Below, one piece after another: positions 51,563 to 54,520 of a stretch of 56,156 bases of DNA. Under the pieces are notes generated by a model that saw only the letters and a program-made list of their open reading frames with translations, made no database searches and was not told the origin of the DNA. The DNA comes from Bacteroidota bacterium. Its GTDB lineage: Bacteria; Bacteroidota; Bacteroidia; Chitinophagales; Chitinophagaceae. The DNA is taken from assembly GCA_005883765.1 (NCBI GenBank), contig VBAQ01000067.1:1-56156 (forward strand), in the 5' to 3' direction. The number at the start of each line of letters is the position of its first letter. The stretch's first letter is position 1. The position numbers and the translations under genes were made by a program.

Positions 51563-52000
51563 TTATTTTATTTTTCTGAGCACTGAGATGTCTCCGCCGG
51601 AGGTAGCTCTTACCTCTAATTTTTTCTTCGGCAATTCTACTATCATTTGATAGAATGTTTCTGAGCCCGCACTGAACTCAATGATGTCATACACGGGCGC
51701 AGTTCCAAATCGTGTATCGATTTGTTTGATCACGGCCAGCGGCAATTGATTGAACAATACATTTCTTGCTGTGCCAAGGAGCTCACCGTCATAGGTAAAA
51801 TATGCTTCGGTACGTAATCCGTTAAAATTGAAACCGGCTGTAATGACATTCTTTCCCTGTTGCCATTTCACATCAGTAGCGCCTTTAAATTCATTTTGAA
51901 AAGTGCTAAGTGCCGGATTGACTTTTTCTTTCCCACCAGCAAATGCAGTTGTAGAAATCAGTGTGAGTGCTGCGCCGAACGCAATGATAAACTTTTTCAT
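51563..52000 (-). CDS. Secreted PepSY-like domain protein (distant paralogue)
   Basis: This 145-residue protein has a signal peptide (MKKFIIAFGAALTLISTTAFAGG). The mature domain (ALSTFQNEFKGATDVKWQQGKNVITAGFNFNGLRTEAYFTYDGELLGTARNVLFNQLPL) matches the PepSY-like, beta-lactamase-inhibitor-like group of small exported Bacteroidota proteins. The order is: helix with FxxEFxGATDxxW, beta hairpin, then YDGELLG-x-R and a QLPL helix. It is a divergent relative of the two genes to its right. All three carry the same ECF-type promoter. The function of the family is not established. Confidence 0.8.
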   Translation of the reverse strand: MKKFIIAFGAALTLISTTAFAGGKEKVNPALSTFQNEFKGATDVKWQQGKNVITAGFNFNGLRTEAYFTYDGELLGTARNVLFNQLPLAVIKQIDTRFGTAPVYDIIEFSAGSETFYQMIVELPKKKLEVRATSGGDISVLRKIK

Positions 52001-52039: not shown

Positions 52040-52070
52040 GTTTGACGACCCAAAACTATCTTAGGTTACA
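52040..52070 (-). promoter_or_regulatory. ECF-sigma-type promoter element 1 of 3
   Basis: On the minus strand TGTAACCT (52070-52063), 15 bases, then CGTCAAAC (52047-52040). It is placed 44 bases (CGTC to ATG) upstream of the gene starting at 52000. It is identical in both boxes and in spacing to the elements at 52715-52745 and 53357-53387, while the spacer differs. Confidence 0.75.
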
Positions 52071-52227
52071 GCACTCAACAAGTAAATTGGGATTGATGGA
52101 GAATGTTGTTAACACAATTAACGAATGAATAGACCGAAAGAAAATCCGGAGTTTCAAAAGAAATTTATGCACGCTTTACAAGAATTCAGTTCTGAACAGA
52201 GCGGGGTCACACACTAGAATTAACTCT

Positions 52228-52671
52228 CTATGACTTCTTGCTTTTTTCGTACACATACCAATCACTGCCGTTCACGGATCTCAACATAATTTTTGTATCC
52301 GCATTTTCGAACGTCACATAATACCCCGTGCCGCTGCTATTGGATAATTCAAACAGATCACTGATCCAGTAGCTACTTGAAAATTTCTTTAAGCTGCCTT
52401 GCAAATTGAGTGGCAATTGTATGGAAGAGATGTTCCTGGTCACTGCGATAAATTGTCCGTCGGTGTCGTAGAAAGCGAATAATTTTTGACCGTTCAATGT
52501 AAAGGTTACTTTGTAGCAATCAGTGCTTACCGACCAGGTTGCGTCGGTTGCGCCGACAAATTCTGTTTTGAACGCATTTAATGCCTGTTTGCTAAGTACC
52601 TCTTCCCCGGTAAAAGCCCATGTTGTGTTGAGTGCGAGCGCCGTTGCGAGCACCATCAGAATCTTTTTCAT
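52228..52671 (-). CDS. Secreted PepSY-like domain protein (tandem paralogue A)
   Basis: This 147-residue protein has a signal peptide (MKKILMVLATALALNTTWAFTGEE). The mature domain shares the helix ALNAFKTEFVGATDATW, the hairpin YKVTFTLNGQKLFAFYDTDGQFIAVTRNIS and the SSIQLPLNLQGSLKKF helix with its neighbour at 52867, to which it is about 70 percent identical by eye. Start chosen as the ATG at 52671, matching the paralogue's MKKI; an ATG two codons upstream (52677) is possible. It has its own ECF-type promoter and lies 187 bases from the paralogue. Confidence 0.82.
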   Translation of the reverse strand: MKKILMVLATALALNTTWAFTGEEVLSKQALNAFKTEFVGATDATWSVSTDCYKVTFTLNGQKLFAFYDTDGQFIAVTRNISSIQLPLNLQGSLKKFSSSYWISDLFELSNSSGTGYYVTFENADTKIMLRSVNGSDWYVYEKSKKS

Positions 52672-52714
52672 AATCATTTAATTTTTTTTATGTCGTAATT
52701 ATTTTGTTCATAGT

Positions 52715-52745
52715 GTTTGACGACATGAGCCCGCTCCAGGTTACA
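52715..52745 (-). promoter_or_regulatory. ECF-sigma-type promoter element 2 of 3
   Basis: On the minus strand TGTAACCT (52745-52738), 15 bases, then CGTCAAAC (52722-52715), 48 bases (CGTC to ATG) before the gene starting at 52671. The extended upstream box reads GTTGTAACCTGGA, close to the copy at 53357-53387. Confidence 0.75.
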
Positions 52746-52802
52746 ACCCGCGAACAAGAAATTGGAATTGAGATAAAGTATTGCAAACTGTTTGAAAAGA
52801 GA

Positions 52803-52836
52803 AACCCCGCTTCCGGCTTCGGCGGAGAGCGGGGTT
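52803..52836 (-). terminator. Terminator of paralogue B
   Basis: AACCCCGCT (minus strand, 52836-52828) pairs with AGCGGGGTT (52811-52803), a 9-bp stem with an inner CCG/CGG pair, followed on the minus strand by TCTCTTTTC. It lies about 30 bases after the stop codon at 52867 and separates the tandem paralogues into two transcription units. Confidence 0.72.
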
Positions 52837-52866
52837 GTTGTTTTACCACACACCAAAACTAACTTA

Positions 52867-53310
52867 TTATACCTTTTTGGATTTCTGATAGACAGTCCAG
52901 TCGCTCCCGTCTACCGATTTCAAAATAATTTTTGTATCTGCATTCTCCAGCGTGACGTAGTAGCCGGTTCCATTGCTATTTGCTAATTCGAATAAGTCGC
53001 TGACCCAATAGTTACCGTAATATTTCTTCAGGCTGCTTTGCAAAGTAAGAGGCAACTGTATGGAAGAAATGTAACGTGTTACCGCCAGGAATTCTCCTTC
53101 TGTGTTGTAGAAAGCAAATAATTTTTGATCATTTAAAGTAAAAGCAACCTTATAATATTCAGACCCAGTGGTCCAGGCTGCATCGGTTGCGCCGGCAAAT
53201 TCTGTTTTAAAAGCATTTAATGCCCGTTGGTTGATTGCTTCTTCGCCTGTAAAAGCATATGTTGTACCGATTGTGAATACCATCGCCAACATCATCATGA
53301 TCTTTTTCAT
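52867..53310 (-). CDS. Secreted PepSY-like domain protein (tandem paralogue B)
   Basis: This 147-residue protein has a signal peptide (MKKIMMMLAMVFTIGTTYAFTGEE). The mature domain includes ALNAFKTEFAGATDAAW, YKVAFTLNDQKLFAFYNTEGEFLAVTRYIS, SSIQLPLTLQSSLKKYYGNYW and the C-terminal GTGYYVTLENADTKIILKSVDGSDW. It is nearly collinear with the gene at 52228 and more distant from that at 51563. It is a PepSY-like, beta-lactamase-inhibitor-like small exported protein of unknown role, with its own ECF-type promoter (53357-53387) and terminator (52803-52836). Confidence 0.82.
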   Translation of the reverse strand: MKKIMMMLAMVFTIGTTYAFTGEEAINQRALNAFKTEFAGATDAAWTTGSEYYKVAFTLNDQKLFAFYNTEGEFLAVTRYISSIQLPLTLQSSLKKYYGNYWVSDLFELANSNGTGYYVTLENADTKIILKSVDGSDWTVYQKSKKV

Positions 53311-53356
53311 ACTATTTTAATTTTCTTGGTTTCTTTGTAATTGTTTCGTTCGTATT

Positions 53357-53387
53357 GTTTGACGTAACAAATGTATTCCAGGTTACA
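53357..53387 (-). promoter_or_regulatory. ECF-sigma-type promoter element 3 of 3
   Basis: On the minus strand TGTAACCT (53387-53380), 15 bases, then CGTCAAAC (53364-53357), 51 bases (CGTC to ATG) before the gene starting at 53310. The spacer sequence differs from the other two copies. Confidence 0.75.
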
Positions 53388-53591
53388 GCGTCACACAACT
53401 GATTTATGATTAGCGGTCACGAGTGTTAACTGCTGTTAACAGAAGTTACTGATCCTAACCGCTCGACATTTACTATTGCCATTCATATCGCCATTGTCCA
53501 CTAACGAACAAAAAATAAAAAAAAATTGTCGAAAAGCTTTTGATCTGAAAGATTATTTAGACATTTGTATAAATATATAATTATCGAATTA

Positions 53592-53855
53592 ATGAATGTT
53601 ATTTTTAAGGCATTGAATGATCCTACGCGCCGCGCCATTCTGGAATTGCTCCAAACAAAAGATATGACCGCAGGGGAAATTGCGGATAAATTTCATATTT
53701 CTTTCCCCAGCATTTCACATCACCTCGACCTGTTAAAGCAGGCGAAACTGGTGGCAGCAGAAAAAGAAGGACAGTTTGTTTATTATTCTTTAAACACAAC
53801 TGTAGTGGATGAGATTCTAAAATGGTTTTTACAATTCAAATCGAAAAAGAAATAA
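53592..53855 (+). CDS. ArsR-type winged-helix autorepressor, SdpR-like
   Basis: This 87-residue regulator of the ArsR family has an N-terminal MNVIFKALNDPTRRAILELL (wing-helix start). The recognition helix is in MTAGEIADKFHISFPSISHHLDLLKQAKLVAAEKEGQFVYYSLN. It has no metal-binding ELCVCDL motif, which fits the SdpR autorepressor group rather than metal sensors. I use the ATG at 53592; the TTG at 53565 gives an AT-rich, unlike-family extension. It is followed two bases after its stop codon by an SdpI-like membrane protein. In Bacillus, SdpR and SdpI form a signal-responsive repressor/immunity pair. Confidence 0.88.
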   Translation: MNVIFKALNDPTRRAILELLQTKDMTAGEIADKFHISFPSISHHLDLLKQAKLVAAEKEGQFVYYSLNTTVVDEILKWFLQFKSKKK

Positions 53856-53857
53856 TT

Positions 53858-54520
53858 ATGAATAAGTTTTTGAAAAGAACTGTTTGGTTCATCATTTTCG
53901 TTCCAGTAACCTATCTCGCTGTCGTGTGGAGCAGATTACCACAAAAGATCGCCATGCACTTTGATCTTCAAGGGAACGCCGACAGGTTTGACAGCAAAAA
54001 CGGATTTTTATGGTTTATAGGGATCATGCTCGTTGCAAATGCGGGTATGTACCTGTTGTTAACAAACATCTATCGCATTGATCCAAAAAAATATGCCGCA
54101 GAGAACAAGGATCGTTTGCAACGAATTGCTTTCGCCCTCGTGGTGTTTTTATCCGTCGTGCAGTGCATCGTTATTTATATTGGCACACAGGGAAGTCTAA
54201 AGCTTAACTTGCGTTTCTTCTTTGCTTTGATCGGTCTCTTCTGGGCAGTGATAGGAAATTACATGAACAATCTTAGGCCAAATTATTTTGCCGGCATTCG
54301 TCTCCCCTGGACACTTGAGAATGAGGAGAACTGGCGACGCACGCATCACCTGGCGAGCAAGCTTTGGTTCGGTGGTGGGTTGTTGATCACAGTTATGTGC
54401 ATTTTTACTTCCACAACAGTTTCAATTATTGCGATATTCTCCATTTTGCTGATAGCAGTTCTAATTCCGGTTATTTATTCGTATCGTTTTTACAAAAAAC
54501 AAAAGTCGGCACGGGCATGA
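53858..54520 (+). CDS. SdpI-like / DUF1648 membrane protein
   Basis: This 220-residue membrane protein has an N-terminal DUF1648 segment (YLAVVWSRLPQKIAMHFDLQGNADRFDSKNGFLW, with the P-x-x-A-x-H-F-x-x-G-x-x-D pattern). About five further membrane helices follow, and an SdpI-like C-terminal half has NYMNNLRPNYFAGIRLPWTLENEENWRRTHHLASKLWFGGGL. It starts two bases after the stop of the SdpR-like gene, so the two are coupled. In Bacillus, SdpI protects from the SdpC toxin and sequesters SdpR. No sdpABC-like toxin genes are in the window, so its signal is unknown. Confidence 0.88.
   Translation: MNKFLKRTVWFIIFVPVTYLAVVWSRLPQKIAMHFDLQGNADRFDSKNGFLWFIGIMLVANAGMYLLLTNIYRIDPKKYAAENKDRLQRIAFALVVFLSVVQCIVIYIGTQGSLKLNLRFFFALIGLFWAVIGNYMNNLRPNYFAGIRLPWTLENEENWRRTHHLASKLWFGGGLLITVMCIFTSTTVSIIAIFSILLIAVLIPVIYSYRFYKKQKSARA

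Follow-up and report, generated by a model that had tools for sequence, protein, structure and literature searches.

Three neighboring genes for small exported PepSY-like proteins, in the genome of a member of the Chitinophagaceae (Bacteroidota), are each preceded by the same pair of short boxes. This raises the question of which sigma factor reads these boxes, and whether the three genes are transcribed in the same way. The original prediction, made on the 56,156-nucleotide stretch of DNA that was analyzed (hereafter the window), interpreted the boxes as ECF-type promoters of an extracytoplasmic-stress regulon of small exported proteins; it missed a housekeeping promoter and an upstream block that are interleaved with the element at genes 1 and 3. 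Comparison of sequences within and between genomes makes it, in our view, highly probable that the boxes are promoters of an ECF factor encoded on another contig (C338), that genes 1 and 3 are additionally driven by sigma-A, and that gene 2 is driven by the ECF factor alone.

Identical boxes in diverged surroundings

The pattern TGTAACCT-N15-CGTCAAAC has exactly three matches in the window, all on the minus strand, one 5' of each PepSY-like gene (Table 1). No further copy with up to three mismatches is present in the 56 kb, and three matches were reached in 0 of 100 shuffled sequences. The same pair is the sole 8+8 dyad common to the three upstream regions. At all three genes it comprises an AAC-type -35 box and a CGTC-type -10 box at canonical ECF spacing (TGTAAC-N17-CGTC), the last base of CGTC lying 44, 48 and 51 bases before the ATG codons. 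The boxes are 100% identical among the three genes, while the spacers are 27-47% identical, the 5' flanks 37-53% and the 3' flanks 31-66%; the coding sequences of genes 2 and 3 share 73% of their nucleotides, and the remaining pairs 53-55%. The prediction is upheld in each of these respects: exact pairs at a 15-base spacing, their distances from the start codons, their presence at the most divergent gene (gene 1), and a degree of spacer divergence that goes beyond mere duplication.

Table 1. Positions of genes and promoter features in the window and of the candidate sigma gene (-, minus strand)
Feature	Position	Strand	Description
Gene 3	52867..53310	-	PepSY/BLIP-like exported protein, 147 aa (P0003)
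Gene 2	52228..52671	-	PepSY-like exported protein, 147 aa counted from second ATG; 69% identical to gene 3
Gene 1	51563..52000	-	PepSY-like exported protein, 145 aa; 30% identical to gene 3
ECF element, gene 3	53357..53387	-	-35 TGTAACCT 53380-53387; 15-nt spacer; -10 CGTC 53361-53364, then AAAC; predicted ECF start ~53354
ECF element, gene 2	52715..52745	-	-35 TGTAACCT 52738-52745; -10 CGTC 52719-52722; predicted start ~52712
ECF element, gene 1	52040..52070	-	-35 TGTAACCT 52063-52070; -10 CGTC 52044-52047; predicted ECF start ~52037
Sigma-A -7 element, gene 3	53368..53375	-	TACATTTG (TAnnTTTG), within ECF spacer; predicted sigma-A start ~53363
Sigma-A -33 element, gene 3	53396..53398	-	TTG, 20 nt upstream of TAnnTTTG
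Sigma-A -7 element, gene 1	52051..52058	-	TAGTTTTG, within ECF spacer; predicted sigma-A start ~52046
Sigma-A -33 element, gene 1	52079..52082	-	CTTG
Upstream block, gene 3	53408..53439	-	TTAA-N6-TTAACA-N7-CC-N5-TC; possible activator site
Upstream block, gene 1	52091..52121	-	TTAA-N5-TTAACA-N7-CC-N5-TC; possible activator site
Cognate ECF sigma gene ortholog	G000:C338:20517-21095	-	With membrane anti-sigma; outside window

The products (145-149 aa) have signal-peptide-like N-termini. They match none of the PepSY families of Pfam, even at E values up to 10, but a model of the gene 3 product (pLDDT 81) resembles in Foldseek the BLIP-like DUF2874 structures 4ipb, 4fr9, 4hbr and 4k61 (TM ~0.71-0.76); the label 'PepSY-like' is therefore justified by the fold and not by a sequence profile.

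An ECF sigma gene that carries the element

Neither of the two ECF genes of the window has the element upstream, as the pattern search bore out, and both were rejected as cognates, being only 28-30% identical to the cognate type described below. Genome-wide pattern searches were scored against reversed-pattern controls. The scan first proposed, TGTAACCT-N14-16-CGTC, finds four exact sites in the genome, those of the three PepSY-like genes and one 5' of a DUF2807 lipoprotein gene; the sigma-factor gene expected with them is not among the four. Across 296 Chitinophagaceae genomes, TGTAACCT-N15-CGTCAA occurs at 37 sites versus 12 for the reversed pattern, and the genes downstream encode DUF2807 lipoproteins, PepSY-like, TonB-plug and DUF6249 proteins, and an ECF sigma factor, with CGTC 15-17 nt before the ATG of the latter. 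Its ortholog in the genome under study lies on C338. The encoded protein has the Pfam domains PF04542 and PF08281 (regions 2 and 4), and the gene downstream specifies an anti-sigma factor of 176 aa with two hydrophobic segments and no Pfam match. Among the 18 ECF-like genes of the genome, only this one carries the element.

The extended pattern TGTAACC-N17-GTCA gives eight sites genome-wide versus two for its reversed control: the window and the C338 ECF/DUF6249 intergenic region hold three each, one lies before the DUF2807 lipoprotein gene (C37), and one is within a gene and, lying inside a long open frame, looks like a chance match. Two of the C338 copies (TGTAACCT-N15-AGTC) face the DUF6249 gene divergent from the sigma gene. 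Relaxed patterns were not enriched (GTAACNT-N15-CGTC, 7 versus 18 in the control; GTAAC-N17-CGTCA, 9 versus 15), so the complete TGTAACC box is required. Sites close to the consensus on C209 (TGTTAC) and C339 (TGTAGC, inside a 496-residue open frame) were left out of the count.

Conservation was assessed on 80 relatives of the sigma gene sampled from five groups of Bacteroidota. GTAACC-N17-GTC lies no more than ~110 nt before the coding start in 74 of them, and the 80 loci together hold 141 elements versus 5 reversed controls; an adjacent membrane anti-sigma factor is conserved in 65. The element also precedes 58 of 60 DUF6249 homologs (control, 0), and TGTAAC-N15..19-GTC is found upstream of 34 of 45 PepSY-like homologs. 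The -10 box follows the form NGTC, with AGTC prevailing at sigma and DUF6249 genes and CGTC invariable among the PepSY-like genes counted. The sigma gene is enriched in genomes bearing the element (24/30 versus 76/266, p=6e-8), and close PepSY-like proteins track it (33/39 versus 17/110, p=1e-14), both p values ignoring shared ancestry; the reversed control pattern shows no such enrichment with the sigma gene (p=0.55). With the element before one ECF sigma gene phylum-wide, as well as before DUF6249 and DUF2807 genes, the reading of the boxes as ECF-type promoters is strongly supported. The predicted regulon does have more members elsewhere; it is not made up of three small exported proteins alone, as its extension to the sigma/anti-sigma pair, the DUF6249 membrane protein and the DUF2807 lipoprotein appears well supported by the sequence comparisons.

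Assignment to the C338 factor, which we infer would use the window elements, is likewise well supported by comparative genomics. Several observations count against it. The element of the C338 sigma gene itself, TGTAACCA-N15-AGTC, is off consensus in both boxes. Of the approximately twelve PepSY-like relatives in the genome, the two closest paralogs outside the cluster (48% and 42% identical) have no element before them, and several homologs in other genomes have none, or a variant one base shorter. Finally, in the complete genome G029 a PepSY-like gene (locus L190) is preceded by a good interleaved element, yet there is no sigma ortholog at E<=1e-50. It is conceivable that a different ECF factor of overlapping specificity mainly recognizes the elements, the C338 factor being one of several: the number of ECF-like genes, the shorter variant and G029 all speak for this, and overlapping ECF regulons have been discussed for Flavobacterium (PMC9723704). 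We nevertheless consider this unlikely, as the C338 sigma gene alone carries the element itself, and close PepSY-like genes follow the C338-type sigma gene from genome to genome.

The shorter variant, TGTAACA-N15-CGTCNTAT, has no sigma-A promoter and stands before the PepSY-like genes of L185, L193, L194, L196, L200, L201 and L202. The cognate sigma ortholog is absent, at E<=1e-50, from some of the genomes concerned, and this class may belong to another ECF factor. The element can also be doubled on the DUF6249 side: at L170 (5262-5358) it is repeated in tandem facing the DUF6249 gene, the two copies being 66 bp apart, and the relatives L090, L091, L093 and L095 show this doubling too.

A housekeeping promoter interleaved with the element

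Housekeeping sigma-A promoters of Bacteroidota have TTG near -33 and TAnnTTTG at -7 (PMC7366714, PMC9723704). Genes 3 and 1 have just such sequences, TTG-N20-TACATTTG and TTG-N20-TAGTTTTG, and their -7 elements fall inside the ECF spacer. The spacer of gene 2 has no TAnnTTTG, and reads GCGGGCTCATG instead. When 30 PepSY-like promoters from Chitinophagaceae were aligned on TGTAAC, and offsets counted from it, 23 of them had TAnnTTTG at offset +12, and likewise 23 had CTTG at -12. At sigma-gene promoters, TAnnTTTG is present at offset +12 in 0 of 74, and DUF6249 elements have none.

Farther upstream, genes 1 and 3 share a TTAA/TTAACA/CC block. These are its only two occurrences in the genome, and it is conserved 5' of PepSY-like homologs across the family. 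LytTR-type sites have a repeat spacing of 21-22 bp; this type was rejected for the block, whose likeness is limited to GTTAA and whose repeat spacings of 10, 16 and 26 do not fit.

The two promoters are separable, because elements with either one alone exist. ECF boxes alone are kept at gene 2 and at its sister-genome relative (TGTAACCTGGAACTATGTTTTAACGTC), and the sigma-A promoter with the block alone is kept in some homologs (the second genes of L175, L183 and L193). At gene 2 the housekeeping promoter and the block have been lost, and the ECF boxes retained exactly.

Interleaving also allows a reading without any ECF promoter, in which the boxes would bind an activator of what is otherwise an ordinary sigma-A promoter. 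Most PepSY-like homologs indeed place TGTAAC between the -33 TTG and the TAnnTTTG of a good sigma-A promoter, and upstream of it lies another conserved block. Yet the boxes, at unchanged spacing, also precede ECF and DUF6249 genes that have no TAnnTTTG, gene 2 retains the boxes only, and AAC...CGTC is the classical core of ECF promoters; we regard this reading as quite improbable. As for the triplet being a relic of tandem duplication without shared regulation, the existence of three tandem paralogs is in its favor, but the conservation data already contradict it, since spacers and flanks have fallen to 27-53% identity (3' flanks, 31-66%) around unchanged boxes and the element recurs before unrelated genes and in other genera, and we give it almost no credence.

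Proposed mechanism

In the mechanism that we propose, the C338 sigma factor, once freed by its anti-sigma factor, would guide RNA polymerase to TGTAACC(T)-N15-NGTC at its own operon (a feedback), the divergent DUF6249 gene, the DUF2807 lipoprotein gene and the three PepSY-like genes. At genes 1 and 3, a sigma-A promoter of the form TTG-N20-TAnnTTTG would overlap the ECF promoter, shifted ~9 nt upstream, and the block farther upstream would serve a regulator. Basal or regulator-dependent starts and ECF-driven starts would then lie at neighboring bases, ~9 nt apart. As both polymerases would be unable to bind together, basal and stress transcription would alternate at these two genes. Transcription of gene 2 would depend on the ECF promoter alone.

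Given the sigma-A promoter within the ECF element, expression is no longer expected under stress alone but at a basal level as well: judging from their promoters, genes 1 and 3 would be subject to dual transcription, and probably run both routinely and under stress. Envelope (extracytoplasmic) stress is a plausible signal. DUF2807 is one of the 'toastrack' domains, which have been linked to envelope-stress operons (PMC11237479); this fits such a signal and is no proof of it. With moderate confidence, we extend the scheme to the PepSY-like genes of Chitinophagaceae at large: a fixed-register sigma-A/ECF promoter of ~40 bp, with a dedicated activator site and mutually exclusive sigma factors, may form a hard-wired switch between basal and stress expression, of which single copies shed either half.

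Comparison with known systems

The system shares with autoregulated ECF systems of Bacteroidota in general a sigma factor limited to regions 2 and 4, a membrane anti-sigma factor encoded downstream, an element before its own gene, and AAC-type -35 and GTC-type -10 boxes. It resembles EcfO-Reo of Bacteroides/Phocaeicola, an ECF pair that probably responds to envelope stress and also drives three paralogous small secreted proteins (PMC9308784, PMC13114119). These are NigD proteins, whereas the targets here are PepSY-like, DUF6249 and DUF2807 proteins; moreover, Reo spans both membranes and has a beta-barrel (PMC9308784), whereas the short anti-sigma factor here, with its two hydrophobic segments, has no outer-membrane barrel. 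SM6 promoters of Flavobacterium psychrophilum and SigP of Porphyromonas define a regulon of T9SS components in which the ECF/anti-sigma pair is itself included (PMC9723704, PMC4800418). The CGT-type -10 of SM6 and the pair within its own regulon are common to the present system, but the published SigP motif is unlike our element and no T9SS genes were seen among the element targets.

The consensus TGTAACCT-N15-NGTC with its target set was not found in the literature searched, the ECF classification, where it may be listed, set aside; nor did that literature yield a description of the interleaved arrangement. Genes 1 and 3 share TAnnTTTG and TTG with the sigma-A promoters of the phylum, and differ from them in having an ECF promoter interleaved at a fixed register. 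The ECF regulon itself is of a known type; the conserved dual promoter arrangement is unusual.

For this ECF system, present in Chitinophagaceae, Sphingobacteriaceae, Saprospiraceae, Roseivirga and Flavobacteriaceae, the comparisons supply a promoter consensus along with a sigma factor and core targets (sigma/anti-sigma, DUF6249, DUF2807 and PepSY-like genes), and they give the abundant, unexplained PepSY-like and head-GIN proteins a common regulatory context. Conserved interleaving, together with natural single-promoter variants, makes competition between sigma factors at one site directly testable.

Next to the cluster, and divergent from gene 3, the window holds genes for an ArsR-family regulator and an SdpI-family membrane protein (53565-54520). 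They resemble an SdpR/SdpI pair, and their synteny with gene 3 is kept in the sister genome (L024).
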